From assembly GCA_015058945.1 (NCBI GenBank), contig SVBF01000012.1, positions 1 to 64,000 of the forward strand: 64,000 bases of DNA, written 5' to 3'. The DNA is from Erysipelotrichaceae bacterium (GTDB lineage: Bacteria; Bacillota_I; Bacilli_A; RFN20; CAG-826). Both the position numbers and the translations under genes were made by a program. This document shows, piece after piece, positions 22,485 to 58,488 of this stretch. Under the pieces are notes generated by a model that did no database searches, was not told the origin of the DNA, and saw only the letters and a program-made list of their open reading frames with translations. The stretch's first letter is position 1. Each line of letters opens with the position of its first letter.

Positions 22485-22490
22485 TTTGCC

Positions 22491-22760
22491 ATCGGCAACG
22501 AAAGGGAAGAGTAAGTTTGACCCTGGCCTAAGAGAGAGTCCCCCATCGGCTGGAAGGGGATAGGCAAAGACAGACAGAACATGGCCCTGGAGCCGTCTAG
22601 GCGATAGGTAGTCTAGGCCGGGAGCGCCCGTCAAAGCGCGAGGGTATATCCATCATTGGCGTACTCAGTAAGGTCTATCGCGGTGACGCGTGGATGAATC
22701 AAGGTGGTAACACGGGCTATTGCGTCTCGTCCTTGAATGAACAGGATGGGACGTTTTATT
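22491..22760 (+). ncRNA. T-box riboswitch, methionine specificity
   Basis: Stem I begins AACGAAAGGGAAGAGTA, with the AGAGAG and GGCTGGAAG distal elements typical of T-boxes. The specifier loop contains AAC-ATG-G (ATG at 22581-22583), the Met codon. The T-box sequence AAGGTGGTAACACGGGC lies at 22701-22717; its UGGU would pair with the ACCA end of an uncharged tRNA carrying discriminator A, as tRNA-Met does. It ends in a terminator (stem CGTC...GACG, TTTTATTT, 22722-22760) that competes with the antiterminator. Uncharged tRNA-Met should allow read-through into metNIQ. Confidence 0.92.
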
Positions 22761-25384: not shown

Positions 25385-25460
25385 GGGGCATTAGCTCAGC
25401 TGGGAGAGCGCCTCGTTCGCAACGAGGAGGTCGGCGGTTCGATCCCGCTATGCTCCACCA
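25385..25460 (+). tRNA. tRNA-Ala (anticodon CGC)
   Basis: 76 nt including an encoded CCA. Acceptor GGGGCAT/ATGCTCC, D arm with AGCTCAGCTGGGAGAGC, anticodon stem CCTCG-TTCGCAA-CGAGG with anticodon CGC (reads GCG), T arm GGCGGTTCGATCCCGCT. A T-run follows. Confidence 0.97.
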
Positions 25461-50607: not shown

Positions 50608-50625
50608 TTGTGGCACGTTTGTGGC
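50608..50625 (+). promoter_or_regulatory. SARP-type direct-repeat box, P1 operon
   Basis: TTGTGGC-ACGT-TTGTGGC, a perfect heptamer direct repeat with 4-bp spacing. A TATCAT -10 candidate starts 10 bp after the box (50636), and the P1 start codon is 37 bp from it. Confidence 0.7.
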
Positions 50626-50662
50626 GGGCCATGACTATCATATTGTCGTCGGGAAAAAAACG

Positions 50663-51718
50663 ATGAGACGCAGCGAAAGAAACGAACTCTACAAATGCAA
50701 CACCAAGGGTTTGATCGACCTCATGAACGACCCGAGGTATATGAATAACAAGAACAACCAGTTTGGCGCCGTGCTTGGCTACCTCGCCCGCCATGGGATG
50801 TCCAACGGAAACTCCAAAGGCGAATTCCTTGATTTGGTCTACGCCGCGAGGAACGAATTCATCGCCCAAGCCGCGAAACAACATGTCGGCGCCAAGGGCG
50901 AAGTCGCCTATGACCAACTCGGCCCCGGCGATGCCAAACTCAAGGCCTTTATCCGCGATCCGCTTCCGATTTTGCAACGCGAGATGAAGGGCTTTTCCGA
51001 ACGCAAAGAGAACTTCGCCGCCGACGAAGATCCGGACATCGTCGATTATTACCGTCGTCTCAAGACCAACGCGGACATTCTTTCCATCGAACTGGGATCC
51101 GATTTCGACCAGACGCGCAATCGTCCGGAAAACACCGAACTCGTGGATGTGATGAACCGCCTCAACAAAAAGATCCCTGAGAACGCGACCACTCCCGAAG
51201 AGGCGTTAAAGAAAGCCAACTCCGGCTTCTTCGGCACCTTATTCCGCCGCCAATCCAAGGAATTCACCGCCTTTAAAACCGCCTTTGATCAGTTCCGCGA
51301 CCCGACCAAAGTCCTCAATAGCGGAAACGTCGGCAATCTCGAAGAGAAGACCACGGCCTACCTCAAGCACCTCAACCCCGCATTCGAATACAAGAAAGGC
51401 ATGGATAAGGAAGCGTTCCTTGCCAACCTTTCCAAGGGACAGAAGGCCCGCGCCGAGTTCGCGCTTAACGTCCTCGACTCCATCGCCGAGCATAAAGAGA
51501 TGAAGCCGTACATGGAAAACGTCGATAACGCCATCAAGGGCAAACCGGTCAAAGAAATCGCCGAACCTAAGGCGGAGGTCAACGATCCGAAGATTCAAGG
51601 CCAATTCCAAAACCAAATCGCCGTCGAACTCGGCGAGGCTAAGGAGAGCAACGACATCGTCAAAGAAGAACCCGCCGAGGAAAAAGTGGCGGAAAACGGA
51701 CCGGAGATGTCCAACTAA
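50663..51718 (+). CDS. P1: uncharacterised cytosolic protein, founder of a three-member local family
   Basis: 351 residues, no signal peptide or membrane helix, mostly helical and highly charged. N-terminal part includes 'GAVLGYLARHGMSNGN', the middle 'NSGFFGTLFRRQSKEFTAFKTAFDQFRDPTK', then 'LEEKTTAYLKHLNP' and 'KARAEFALNVLDSIAEHKEM' (about 195-290), all of which align with P3 (57346) and, more weakly, with P2 (54473). The last 40 residues are a Glu-rich tail ('VKEEPAEEKVAENGPEMSN'). First gene of an operon with the C26 lipoprotein. No known family recognised. Confidence 0.75.
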   Translation: MRRSERNELYKCNTKGLIDLMNDPRYMNNKNNQFGAVLGYLARHGMSNGNSKGEFLDLVYAARNEFIAQAAKQHVGAKGEVAYDQLGPGDAKLKAFIRDPLPILQREMKGFSERKENFAADEDPDIVDYYRRLKTNADILSIELGSDFDQTRNRPENTELVDVMNRLNKKIPENATTPEEALKKANSGFFGTLFRRQSKEFTAFKTAFDQFRDPTKVLNSGNVGNLEEKTTAYLKHLNPAFEYKKGMDKEAFLANLSKGQKARAEFALNVLDSIAEHKEMKPYMENVDNAIKGKPVKEIAEPKAEVNDPKIQGQFQNQIAVELGEAKESNDIVKEEPAEEKVAENGPEMSN

Positions 51719-52688: not shown

Positions 52689-52836
52689 TCAAAACTATTT
52701 TCATATATTTAAATACGCATAAACGCACGCGTGCATAATATCGAATTCGCGAAAACCTGCGTTTACTATGAAAATTCGCGAAAATTTAGATACTTTGTAT
52801 CTACATAAGATTTTTAAAGATTTTTGCAAAAAATGC
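52689..52836 (+). promoter_or_regulatory. AT-rich region with repeats in front of the giant RNA
   Basis: Contains AATTCGCGAAAA twice (52744-52755 and 52773-52784, 29 bp apart) around the octamer palindrome TTCGCGAA, and the inverted repeat TAGATAC-TTT-GTATCTA (52787-52803). A third ATTCGCGAAAA lies on the far side of the RNA gene at 54385-54395. Operator-like; no terminator for the preceding operon is evident. Confidence 0.55.
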
Positions 52837-52864
52837 TTGCACACTTTTTCGATGCGAGTATAGT
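52837..52864 (+). promoter_or_regulatory. Strong promoter of the giant structured RNA
   Basis: TTGCAC (52837-52842), 16-bp spacer, TATAGT (52859-52864). Predicted start near 52870. Confidence 0.8.
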
Positions 52865-52869
52865 TATGT

Positions 52870-54327
52870 GTTCCGCAGGGAACGCCAAGCCGCAAGGTAA
52901 GCGAAACTGTGGTAACCACCTTAACATAGTTAAGGTGAGGGGAATGTGTGATGCCCCTCGGGAACTTCGGTTCCTCAAAGGTCTACTGCCTCGAAAGAGA
53001 CAAAGGCTGGTCCTGGACTAACCCATGGCCCGCTAAGGAATCGCTCGCCCTTCGGTAAACCGATGAATGGAGCTGGAAAGGAAGAAAGAGGTCCTGCGAT
53101 GGATCCTCGAGGACTCCTTCCCTAAGGGCTCCCGCGCAGAACGGGAACGCCACCGCCTCTCGTCCCAGGCGGCTAGTGAAACTAGAGAGAATGGGAGATG
53201 CGGACAGCCTTGGAAAAGGAACATCCGCAAGAAGGGTTAAGCGAACTTCGTCGCGTCCCTTCCCAGGATTCGCCCCCTGGCTCGTGAACGAGAAAACGCG
53301 GCGATGCCGTCAAACCTTCCTTGCGATAGGGGGGATGCTGCGGCGAAGGGTAACCCCCTGGAGGATTCCCGCCTCCCACTGGTAAACCAGAACAAACAGG
53401 GCCGACGGTGGACTTGGTTCGTCCCAAGGCAAACCGTCCAAGGCGAAGGCGCGAGCCTCCGCACGGAACATCCCATCCTTCAGATGCGCTCTGAGAACAT
53501 GGGTCCCAAGCTAACCTACTCCCGCAAGGGCATGGCCAACTTGGTCAAGGGGCTGCGGCGAAAGCCGATGTCCCCGACGGAATTCGAGCCGTCGCGTGGT
53601 AGAACCACGGCAATTCCATCGAATGGGTCGTGAGATCCGGAGAGGGCAAATCCCTCAGACCCCGCAGAAAGGCCGCGGTAAACCCGAAAATCTCTGCTCC
53701 CTCCGCTGCTATGGCCTAGTAAGCCCTCTACGCGGTACGGTAGTTCCCCGGGCATAAGCCTGCGGAACGATGGTTGTCCCGCCATTGCGTGAAACGCTGA
53801 TCATGGGAATGTGAACGCGTCGGTCTTCTTCGGAAGGCAGGGGCGTCCAGAAACGCCTGGGAATTCATAACCAGGTGGTGCCCAAAGAGGCCCGGCGCGC
53901 GGTAAACCGCTGGAAAGGCCTCTTCCCTAGGGAGTAATTCCTAGGCGAGTGAGGAGACCTTGGTCCCCTCGGGAAGTCGTTCCACCCCTCAATCGTGAAG
54001 TTGGAACGTGGCTTGGACACTTAGGCGGACGAAGATGTAACCTAAGGTTCCGGTCGAGACCGACGGTCGTCTGTTGACGTTGCGTCGGCCTAGGAAGATA
54101 AGAGCTCTTCTCAGCGGTACACCGCAGAACCAAAAACTTGTTCCCGAATCCCTCCTGCGTTAGGGCCAGGCGGTGGTAAGGAACGAATCCCGTAAGGGAT
54201 GTGGTTGGTTGGAATCTCCCACGAGGTAAACCTCAAATACGAAATGTCCCGGCGATATTGGAGCTAGACAAGCCGTTAAACCGGAAAGCCGAGTGACACC
54301 ACGCAGCGATGCGTGGCGTTTTCTTTT
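52870..54327 (+). ncRNA. Giant (about 1.46 kb) structured non-coding RNA, class not recognised
   Basis: No ORF with a ribosome site or protein-like composition is present, yet the stretch lies between a good promoter and a good terminator. Dense local hairpins are directly visible: GTTCC-GCAG-GGAAC (52870), CACCTTAAC-ATA-GTTAAGGTG (52917-52937), GAGGGG...CCCCTC (52937-52959), GGAAC-TTCG-GTTCC (52961-52974), CTAGT-GAA-ACTAG (near 53173), CCC-GCAA-GGG (53521-53530), CGGC-GAAA-GCCG (53556-53567), CGTGG-TAGAA-CCACG (53595-53609), GAGGG-CAAAT-CCCTC (53642-53656), CTTC-TTCG-GAAG (near 53828), ATCCC-GTAA-GGGAT (near 54188). A hairpin of form GG-UAA(A)-CC recurs about seven times. It is not rRNA, tmRNA, RNase P or SRP RNA as far as I can tell. 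Size exceeds the published OLE, ROOL and GOLLD classes; it could be a divergent large relative or a new class. Confidence 0.8.
54299..54327 (+). terminator. Rho-independent terminator of the giant RNA
   Basis: CCACGCA-GCGA-TGCGTGG (7 bp, GNRA loop) followed by CGTTTTCTTTT. Confidence 0.9.
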
Positions 54328-54405
54328 ATACAGTAGGTTTTCGCAAGTCTCATCGGAGTGCTTAAAGACGATAAGCGGCAACATATTCGCGAAAAAGTTG
54401 CTTTA

Positions 54406-54472: not shown

Positions 54473-55969
54473 ATGCCAGTTTACGAGCCCTTTACCAAAG
54501 AAGAAAAAAGAGACATCATCGCGCGTCACCATTACCTCGTCGATGAGATGAACAAGACCCTCGGCGGCGTTTTGGAATACGAGGACGAAAGAATCCTGCA
54601 GAAGCTGGAAGACCCGAAGGAGGTCGCCGCCTATCGTTTGCATGAGGAAAACAAGCTGAGAAACGAGAAGCGTCAGAGAATCATGGACGACCTCGGTTTC
54701 CGATTTGGCACCCAGGGCATGGACCACAATCCTTTGAACCGCCACATCAAATATCTCATGAAGCTTGGCGACGATCCCAAGGACACGGAATATAACGAAA
54801 AGTTATACCAGGAATATCTCCGGAATCCCGAGAAAATCATTTACCGTGAGTATAAGAAGATTTTGGAGCTCAATCCGCAGCAGCTTTACGATCTAGGCAA
54901 CGACAAGCAGAAGATCGCCGAGTTCTATATGGATAACACGGGCCTATGCGAGGGCGCGTTCGTCGTGAACTCGGTCATCACCAACAGCAACGCCAAGGCG
55001 ACCAAGGCGTTACGTAACGGCCTTGCTTCGATGGCTAAGCCGATCGAATCGCTCAACGAAATCGGCCACACGCTCAAGAACAATGGCATCGATAGCTTCG
55101 CTTGCCCGACCCTCACCCAAGAGCAGACTTTGCTCGCGATGACGAACCAGACCCTATTCTTAGGTAATCCCAACCCCGTGTTGACGGAGGTCATGAACTG
55201 CAACCTCATCCCGATCGAAACCCCGCATGACTATTTCCAAAAGTTCGTCGATTATGGCATCGACATAAACCAGCCGAAGTTCTTCACCAAATACAAAGCG
55301 GTCAAAACCGATCCGGAGACGGGCAACAAAAGGGAAGTGGGCTTCCATGAACTCTTTGATGACGACGACCCCAACGTCCGCATCGAAATCCGCAGCAAGG
55401 ACGAGCAGGAGGAAATCCTCGCCGTCAATCGCGCCTACCAAGACAAATACGCGGAAAAGTTCCAAGCCCGCATCGCCACGAAGCTCAACCAGATGAACTT
55501 CGACATCAACCAGCTCGAGGAAGAGCGTAAGGGTAGTTGGGTGGAACGTAATGTTCTCCATTCCACGTCCCGCGAATGGACGGAATTCATCGGCGCCTTC
55601 AAGGACTATAACAACCCCGAGCATCCCAATTACCTCCGCAAGGACATCCTTAAGCCCAAAGCCCAGGCCTACATGAACCGTAAACACCGCCAAGGCTATG
55701 CGACGGTGGAGGACATGAAGGGCACTTCGCGTAGCCGTGGTACATTGGCTCAGGCCGTCATCGATACCTGCGATGAGTTCGAGGAGCAAAAGAACCAGAT
55801 CACCGAGGACATCGAGATCGCGATCAATACCGGGTTCAATGGCAAGGTCGGGCTTATCATCAACGCCAAAGAAGTCGACGACAACGACAACGTGGCGGAA
55901 CCGGAGGAAGAGAAATCCAACGAGATCAAAAACGAAATCGTTAAAGATCAAGGGTCGCTCGAGATGTAG
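54473..55969 (+). CDS. P2: uncharacterised cytosolic protein related to P1 and P3
   Basis: 498 residues, the longest of the three, without signal peptide or membrane helix. The stretch about 340-450 ('WVERNVLHSTSREWTEFIGAFKDYNNPEHPNYLRKDI', 'PKAQAYMN', 'LAQAVIDTCDEFEEQKNQITEDIE') corresponds to the shared C-terminal module of P1 and P3; the first 330 residues are its own. The tail is Glu/Asn/Lys-rich ('EPEEEKSNEIKNEIVKDQG'). Good ribosome site AAAAAGGAGG. It is the first gene behind the giant RNA and is followed by a terminator, so it forms its own unit. No known family recognised. Confidence 0.75.
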   Translation: MPVYEPFTKEEKRDIIARHHYLVDEMNKTLGGVLEYEDERILQKLEDPKEVAAYRLHEENKLRNEKRQRIMDDLGFRFGTQGMDHNPLNRHIKYLMKLGDDPKDTEYNEKLYQEYLRNPEKIIYREYKKILELNPQQLYDLGNDKQKIAEFYMDNTGLCEGAFVVNSVITNSNAKATKALRNGLASMAKPIESLNEIGHTLKNNGIDSFACPTLTQEQTLLAMTNQTLFLGNPNPVLTEVMNCNLIPIETPHDYFQKFVDYGIDINQPKFFTKYKAVKTDPETGNKREVGFHELFDDDDPNVRIEIRSKDEQEEILAVNRAYQDKYAEKFQARIATKLNQMNFDINQLEEERKGSWVERNVLHSTSREWTEFIGAFKDYNNPEHPNYLRKDILKPKAQAYMNRKHRQGYATVEDMKGTSRSRGTLAQAVIDTCDEFEEQKNQITEDIEIAINTGFNGKVGLIINAKEVDDNDNVAEPEEEKSNEIKNEIVKDQGSLEM

Positions 55970-57345: not shown

Positions 57346-58488
57346 ATGCCGAAGCTCACAAAAGAAGAACTTCAACGCGTCCGCTATGTCTCCATGGCGG
57401 ATTTCGCGCGCCGCTTCGACCAGATTCAGGACTTTGACGACAAGATGTCCTTCGCGACGCGTTACTTGCTTTGCCATGGCATGAAGGGCGCCGAGAACGA
57501 CTATAGCTTTCCCGAGGCGCTCCATATCGCCCGCACGAAGATCGCCGACGCCTCTGCCAGGATGAAGGAGCAGTTCTTCGCGCAATCGGACGAGGATTTG
57601 ACCAAACGCCCCCATATTGTGAACCCTTGGCTTAAGGACGAAAGGGCCGACCTTGCGGCCGAAGCCTTCATGGGCAATCCGACGGGCTATGTCCAAGGCG
57701 CCGCCAAGGAGCTCGCCCAAGAAATGGGCAGCAGCTCCGGTTTTAACATTGACCTAAAGGCGAACTGCGAACGCATCTCCCATTTGCCCGAGGAGCAGAC
57801 GAACCGCGCCGTTTTCGCCCTCGACGCCACGCCGACGGCCTTCGACGTCAAGATGCGCTTGGAAACCAAGCTCGGCGGTAGGGCGGAACTAGAAAGCTTA
57901 TACCAAACCGCGAAGCCAGGTCTTTTCTCCAGAATCCTCGGCGCCTCTTCCCCCGCCTCGCACAAACTCGACGCCGCCTATAAGGCGTTCCAAAACCCGA
58001 GGGACCGTGCCTTTGGGGACATGAACGCCATGGAGAAGGCATCCAATGATTATTTGGGCTATAAAATCCCTACTTGGAAACCTGGGCAAAAGATGCCAAA
58101 CGACGTCATGGGTGTCCTTAATCCCGCCGAGAAGGCCAGGGCCAAGCTCTCCGTCTACATGCTCGAATCCATCGAAGAGCAACGCGCGATGGAAGACGAC
58201 TTCCGCACGATGGTGAAAGCCTGTAGCGCGAAGAGCCTTTCCTATGATGACGTTATCGCCTCTAGGGTGACCCTGCGCGAAACGTCACAGGAAGAGCCGC
58301 ATGTCGAAGACGCCGTCAAAGAAGAAACCAGAATCAAATCGCCTCGCGGGCTCGATCAGGCCTCCTTCCAATCCTTTTTGGAATATGACGCCCAAGACGA
58401 GACTTTGATGGAGAGTAGGGGAGAGGCAACCGAAGAGGAGCCGTCCATCGATGAACCTGCGATTGACGAAGCCGCGGTGGTGCAATAA
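57346..58488 (+). CDS. P3: uncharacterised cytosolic protein, paralogue of P1
   Basis: 380 residues, no signal peptide or membrane helix. Shares with P1 'YLLCHGMKGAEN' (P1 'YLARHGMSNGN'), 'KPGLFSRILGASSPASHKLDAAYKAFQNPRD' (P1 'NSGFFGTLF...FKTAFDQFRDPTK') and 'NPAEKARAKLSVYMLESIEEQRAME' (P1 'SKGQKARAEFALNVLDSIAEHKEM'). Glu/Asp-rich C-terminus ('EEEPSIDEPAIDEAAVVQ'). It is 5 bp upstream of the SARP-type response regulator. No known family recognised. Confidence 0.76.
   Translation: MPKLTKEELQRVRYVSMADFARRFDQIQDFDDKMSFATRYLLCHGMKGAENDYSFPEALHIARTKIADASARMKEQFFAQSDEDLTKRPHIVNPWLKDERADLAAEAFMGNPTGYVQGAAKELAQEMGSSSGFNIDLKANCERISHLPEEQTNRAVFALDATPTAFDVKMRLETKLGGRAELESLYQTAKPGLFSRILGASSPASHKLDAAYKAFQNPRDRAFGDMNAMEKASNDYLGYKIPTWKPGQKMPNDVMGVLNPAEKARAKLSVYMLESIEEQRAMEDDFRTMVKACSAKSLSYDDVIASRVTLRETSQEEPHVEDAVKEETRIKSPRGLDQASFQSFLEYDAQDETLMESRGEATEEEPSIDEPAIDEAAVVQ

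Follow-up and report, generated by a model that had tools for sequence, protein, structure and literature searches.

A 1.46-kb structured RNA gene without an Rfam match, dispersed in two genera of rumen Bacilli

Positions 52837-54329 of the DNA analysed here are a complete RNA gene, consisting of a sigma-A promoter, a structured transcript of a predicted 1,457 nt or so, and an intrinsic terminator. The DNA (the window) is a stretch of 64,000 nt from contig SVBF01000012.1 of an Erysipelotrichaceae bacterium. That this is a genuine conserved structured RNA gene, conserved as RNA structure rather than as protein, is in our judgement almost certain. Its copies lie scattered in genomes of two related genera of rumen Bacilli. 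We regard the RNA as a new class, albeit within the broad and already established group of "giant ornate bacterial RNAs". The original prediction for this region, an RNA gene of about 1.46 kb that has no open reading frame (ORF) and belongs to no known class, is thus borne out: there is no Rfam match, covariation is strong, and no ORF is conserved. The three observations named beforehand as speaking against it (a known Rfam class, missing covariation among homologues, a translated conserved ORF) were all looked for and none occurred, which supports the interpretation.

Extent of the gene

52806-52836, A/T-rich UP-like tract directly before the promoter
52837..52864, plus strand, sigma-A-type promoter: TTGCAC (52837-52842), 16-nt spacer, TATAGT (52859-52864)
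52870..54326, plus strand, RNA gene of about 1,457 nt, ends predicted from promoter and terminator
54296..54329, plus strand, intrinsic terminator: 10-bp stem with GCGA loop (hairpin 54296-54319), then a T-run

The promoter lies where it had been proposed, with the proposed hexamers and spacing. A -35/-10 pair and an A-rich upstream tract were present at the copies whose upstream sequence was inspected. The -35 sequence itself varies among the copies (TTGCAC, TTGACG, TTGCAA or TTGACA); the pair is nonetheless kept. For the terminator, the GNRA loop had been recognized correctly, whereas the stem is 10 bp long and not 7 bp. In copies with a 3' end the terminator is kept and covaries, with compensatory changes of the stem between copies (CACCACGCA/TGCGTGGCG, CACCAGGCA/TGCCTGGCG, CACCTCGCA/TGCGAGGCG and CACCCCACA/TGTGGGGCG).

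Evidence for a conserved RNA structure

The structure was analysed in an alignment of 27 distinct copies. RNAalifold yielded 378 consensus pairs at -716 kcal/mol (the consensus pair count is 378-396), whereas column-shuffled alignments reached only -193 to -211. Canonical cells accounted for 89.3%, compared with 37-46% when the 3' partners were slid by 1-3 columns, and double-sided (compensatory) change was found in 265 of the 378 pairs, compared with 125-161 in the slid controls. Covariation was assessed with an R-scape-like procedure, a G-test with average-product correction whose null re-drops the substitutions of each column on the tree. Against this tree-simulated, phylogeny-preserving null, 92 of the 378 pairs covary at E<0.05 (two-set). 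The collection of homologues and the covariation analysis that had been suggested for this region gave 27 copies and 92 significant pairs. Among the top-scoring covarying pairs, 41 lie inside the structure and 4 outside it; two of these four mark a further helix, 53583-53584/53622-53623. Within the helices there are 728 G-U cells but 342 A-C cells. This excess indicates that the transcript is on the plus strand.

Relative to 40 dinucleotide shuffles, the single sequence has a z of -3.3 (minimum free energy -586.8 kcal/mol), in agreement with the dense hairpins noted originally. For comparison, z was -0.8 to -1.8 in five further, for the most part coding, stretches of the window. As the stability of the single sequence is modest, the comparative evidence is decisive.

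A credible protein had not been expected, and none of 18 other copies keeps the longest ORF of the plus strand (109 aa) open and in frame; no ORF of at least 50 aa is open in more than 5 of these 18. One could still ask whether the region is divergent coding sequence or a pseudogene, its hairpins being a by-product of the G+C content. Long ORFs do occur on the minus strand of some single copies (344 aa at most, in L026), but these are conserved neither in position nor in frame. In addition, hundreds of compensatory changes, the plus-strand preference for G-U over A-C and the weaker folding of the other window stretches relative to their shuffles speak against this explanation, to which we give practically no credence.

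Copies in two genera of rumen Bacilli

A nucleotide search of the source genome with a query of 1,466 bases found two more copies of full length, both with 71% identity across the entire query. In the genus, copies were found in 19 of 31 genomes by nucleotide search and in 18 of 31 by covariance model; the genome responsible for the difference is G011, whose copy ends at the edge of a contig. With both end anchors present, nineteen copies are complete. Their length is 1388-1472 nt and their mean pairwise identity 67%; complete copies occur at unrelated sites, one to three per genome.

The covariance model, R1, was built from the 3' core (53971..54130) and recovers the copies at E values of 1e-6 to 1e-49 per genome. 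It detected copies in four genomes of a sister genus and also a divergent subfamily in G025, the paralogues L107 and L108, which are alike over about 1.67 kb (73% identity) and have only parts of the 3' half in common with the main family. When R1 was run over 224 genomes of the family, 279 of the order and 395 from across the class, matches were confined to the two genera. An exact-pattern scan over 84,980 species returned 25 stretches. All are in metagenome-assembled genomes that carry the name Bacilli, Bacillales or Erysipelotrichaceae, and the source names of many point to ruminants (deer, goat, reindeer). In phage and plasmid records no copy was found, and viral contigs gave no match to three exact patterns. 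A 31-nt match in G078 was not confirmed by R1 and was rejected as a chance match.

Solo copies of the last 37-46 nt or so, i. e. the terminator region, were seen at L036:8017-8053 (G000:C7:33016-33052) and at G018:C136:2994-3039. The one in L036 lies a few nucleotides after the stop codon of a PIN-domain-like gene, about 800 nt downstream of a complete copy of the RNA.

Relation to known RNAs

The models of Rfam 15 (4227 in number) include OLE, ROOL, GOLLD, HEARO, introns, RNase P and rRNA. With cmscan, no match at gathering scores was obtained on the RNA, neither in the window nor in 20 homologous loci. At E<=10 the matches on the RNA were at chance level, and one below-threshold match fell in the AT-rich upstream region. 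The Rfam comparison proposed earlier thus points to no credible class. A full-text literature search found no description of such an RNA; its coverage excluded bioRxiv preprints and most subscription papers, so an earlier description is possible. A group II intron was considered and rejected: there is no Rfam intron match, the gene has its own promoter and terminator, its sites are intergenic, and no ORF is conserved.

The raiA-motif RNA (ModT), likewise a structured stand-alone non-coding RNA (ncRNA) of Bacillota, is much shorter than the new RNA. It gave no match, and in the cited study it is monomeric. The closest systems are the three ornate RNAs OLE, ROOL and GOLLD, whose assembly relies on A-minor contacts and on kissing loops that are in part self-complementary (PMC12286853). 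GOLLD, the largest of the three with 833 nt in the solved construct, forms a 14-mer nanocage as seen by cryo-electron microscopy (PMC12286853). The new RNA is longer than all three, as had been stated. Like GOLLD, it is a very large ornate bacterial RNA with a conserved 3' region, a more variable 5' part, and GNRA and self-complementary loops; unlike GOLLD, it has no cmscan match to a known class and, at about 1,460 nt, is nearly twice as long. With ROOL it shares the association with the rumen and the character of a large ornate ncRNA, yet it has no Rfam match, is more than twice as long (ROOL being about 580 nt according to the original prediction) and was not found in the phage, plasmid or viral collections. 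OLE, a dimer that belongs to a membrane ribonucleoprotein, is a large ornate RNA of Gram-positive bacteria too, and one of its loop forms, AGCU, is kept here. However, the new RNA has no Rfam match to OLE, is more than twice its length and has no recurrent protein neighbour at its copies. Whereas GOLLD and ROOL are encoded by phages or prophages, often near tRNA genes, the new RNA occupies dispersed bacterial sites. An association with tRNAs is unsupported: besides the window, a tRNA gene is present at only 2 of the 27 copy loci. The window contains a tRNA-Ala(CGC) at 25385-25460 and a T-box leader at 22489-22737 (Rfam RF00230, 97.5 bits).

Domains and conserved loops

The RNA consists of a 5' region, a central domain and a strongly conserved 3' domain. 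Features of the consensus structure are as follows.

52980..53661, plus strand, central domain, closing helix 52980-52983/53658-53661, with many covarying hairpins
53856..53875, plus strand, hairpin with a covarying 5-bp stem and a near-invariant 10-nt loop, GAAUUCAUAA
53876..54291, plus strand, 3' domain, the most conserved part, closing helix 53876-53879/54288-54291
53903..53906, plus strand, loop of a UAAA-loop hairpin (GGUAAACC), one of at least five recurrent, near-invariant sites
53056-53059, 53679-53682, 54118-54121 (UACA/UAAA) and 54227-54230, plus strand, the other UAAA-loop sites
53971..54130, plus strand, core of model R1, with invariant GGAAGUCGUUCCACCC...GGAACGUG and CCUAGGAaGAUAAGAGnUC
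54261..54268, plus strand, hairpin loop GAGCUAGA with a conserved self-complementary AGCU, candidate symmetric kissing loop

Over the 27 copies, the hairpin loops comprise 214 GNRA, 116 UAAA and 14 UNCG loops. The emphasis that had been placed on GNRA tetraloops was therefore justified. UUCG loops, in contrast, are not as prominent as supposed, UNCG being a minor type, and the recurrent UAAA-loop hairpins had been missed. The UAAA loop of these sites is kept in 20-26 of the 27 copies, except at 54118-54121, where UACA occurs in 17 and UAAA in 8. The loop of the hairpin at 53856-53875 reads (G/A)AAUUCAUAA in 24 of the 27 copies and GAAUACAUAA in the remaining 3. R1 also has a weak secondary match inside the same RNA (53332-53395, E=9e-4). 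Such weak internal matches are a hint that two-hairpin modules may be repeated within the RNA.

Two of the loops are self-complementary. The loop at 54261-54268 contains a palindrome of at least 4 nt in 24 of the 27 copies (shuffle expectation 0.29), appearing as GAGCUC in L037 and L047; the divergent L110 has AAGCUU. The second, with GAAUUC at 53861-53870, likewise keeps its palindrome in 24 of the 27.

Conservation is concentrated in the 3' domain, where loops and junctions hold a good part of it. Large ribozymes show the same, and the near-invariant unpaired segments of this domain (GGAAGUC, CCUAGGAAGAUAAGAG, AAAAACUUG and the 10-nt hairpin loop) might form a catalytic core. Yet even at E<=10 there was no match to group I or II introns, RNase P or any Rfam ribozyme; the gene stands free from promoter to terminator and is no intron, and known large RNAs without catalytic activity share this conservation pattern. 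We therefore consider a ribozyme improbable.

An upstream palindrome as candidate operator

52785..52805, plus strand, palindrome TTTAGATAC-TTT-GTATCTACA, centre 63.5 nt before TATAGT, candidate operator

A palindrome that follows the pattern TAGATAY-(C)N3(G)-RTATCTA precedes about 18 of the 27 copies. Where measurable, its centre is 63.5-65 nt from TATAGT; in L003 the distance is 53.5 nt, one helical turn less. Among the 31 genomes of the genus the exact-form pattern has 11 matches, all but one upstream of a copy of the RNA. The palindrome arms covary among the copies and, by inspection, their sequence seems to track the host genome and not the RNA phylogeny: the G018 copies L007 and L029 both have TAAATATC arms, but the arms of L001 and L017, their sisters in the RNA phylogeny, read TAGATAC(C). 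Because non-sister RNA copies of one genome have arms in common and the arms change together, the palindrome is a candidate operator for a dimeric regulator that the genome itself would encode. L028, L030 and L031 are preceded by a second operator-like type, TATACANTGTATA.

A possible homo-oligomeric scaffold

A possible interpretation, which we favour tentatively and would not yet call probable, is that the RNA is a homo-oligomeric scaffold in analogy to OLE, ROOL and GOLLD. Its own sigma-A promoter would drive transcription, probably under the control of a dimeric regulator binding the upstream palindrome, and transcription would stop at the gene's own terminator, so that the product would be the multi-domain RNA of about 1.46 kb itself. 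Untranslated, this RNA would fold into a large compact particle held by its many GNRA and UAAA tetraloops. RNA copies would then assemble with one another through the self-complementary loops AGCU and GAAUUC, and the assembly would act as a scaffold or container, as OLE, ROOL and GOLLD assemble. For assembly speak the 214 GNRA and 116 UAAA loops and the two loops that stay palindromic in 24 of the 27 copies, in the case of AGCU much more often than shuffles would lead one to expect. In OLE and GOLLD, loops of these kinds form homomeric contacts (PMC12286853), and OLE dimerises through symmetric loop switching among GGCC, GAUC and AGCU (PMC12286853).

Several points weigh against the scaffold. 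The arguments for transcription and for oligomer formation are indirect, drawn from sequence comparison. The palindromic loops are nearly invariant and hence provide no covariation proof of an intermolecular contact, and three copies break each palindrome. When loops that could pair with each other beyond the nested fold (pseudoknots or kissing loops) were looked for, only three weak 4-bp candidates were obtained. Finally, the conserved unpaired stretches may equally fit a catalytic core or protein sites. The fuller picture of a giant RNA class that forms an RNA-only homo-oligomeric particle, is encoded by bacteria and not by phages, has a dedicated regulator and uses a recurrent, possibly new UAAA-loop hairpin module for tertiary or quaternary contacts is conceivable, but we regard it as doubtful.

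Neighbouring genes and dispersal

50621-51718, window protein gene, related weakly to the next two
54473..55969, plus strand, gene of a 498-aa protein, the next gene downstream, about 150 nt from the RNA, candidate partner
57346-58488, window protein gene

The proteins of all three genes are large and have no convincing match in Pfam, NCBIfam or PHROGs. The RNA had been placed between two members of the same protein family; in fact these flanking proteins are only weakly alike (50621 versus 57346, E=0.002; 50621 versus 54473, E=0.027). Nor did the description of the surroundings as a conserved-looking island hold, since most other copies lie in a different context. Apart from a few cases, chiefly among sister species, each copy has its own flanking genes, and no flanking gene family is shared by the majority of the copies. 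The differing flanks indicate a stand-alone, dispersed gene. The copies L038 and L047, which are from different genomes, have a neighbouring gene in common and a tmRNA gene 2-3 kb away; this tmRNA-side context may be conserved across the two genera.

The 498-aa protein is a lead as a possible partner of the RNA. Homologues of its family occur in 10 of the 31 genus genomes, all RNA-positive (Fisher P=0.002, not corrected for phylogeny; P=0.015 when G011 counts as RNA-negative), and in G018 the family is encoded on the same contig as the RNA copy L007. The RNA could thus be part of a ribonucleoprotein in which the fold offers sites for proteins, possibly of this family, and the complex does the work, as OLE does with the Oap proteins. 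We consider this unlikely. About half of the RNA-positive genomes are without the protein, most of its genes are on other contigs than the RNA, and the common ancestry of the carriers is not controlled for in the association. Moreover, the protein belongs to no recognisable RNA-binding family, and no flanking family is common to most copies.

Dispersal itself suggests another explanation, a mobile or satellite-like cassette in which palindrome, promoter, RNA and terminator duplicate together and the RNA serves its own spread. The patchy presence of complete copies at unrelated sites would fit this, as would sister paralogues within genomes (L002/L003 and L008/L026), homology that begins near the palindrome and stops at the terminator, and the solo terminator just after the PIN gene. 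A ZIP gene stands beside the C16 copy, and its orthologues in close relatives show no adjacent RNA; however, synteny is too low for a clean empty site to be demonstrable there. Neither target duplications nor an encoded transposase were seen, the viral and plasmid collections gave no match, and the tmRNA-side context of L038 and L047 looks common to both genera. We therefore judge a cassette very improbable, and the scaffold remains the interpretation that we favour.

Significance

Few large natural RNAs without an assigned function are on record, and with OLE, ROOL and GOLLD the view of what RNA can build has changed. The gene described here represents a previously uncatalogued RNA family in rumen bacteria, each gene encoding one very large, intricately folded, non-coding RNA. 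The family is longer than these three and self-contained; it numbers at least 27 distinct sequences, and its secondary structure is well supported. As the RNA lends itself to immediate in vitro transcription and imaging, it is directly testable whether self-assembly is common among giant RNAs. The family suggests that giant RNAs can be dispersed bacterial genes with specific transcriptional control. If the scaffold interpretation is true, this would be a natural RNA assembly built from a molecule almost double the size of GOLLD and about as long as 16S rRNA.
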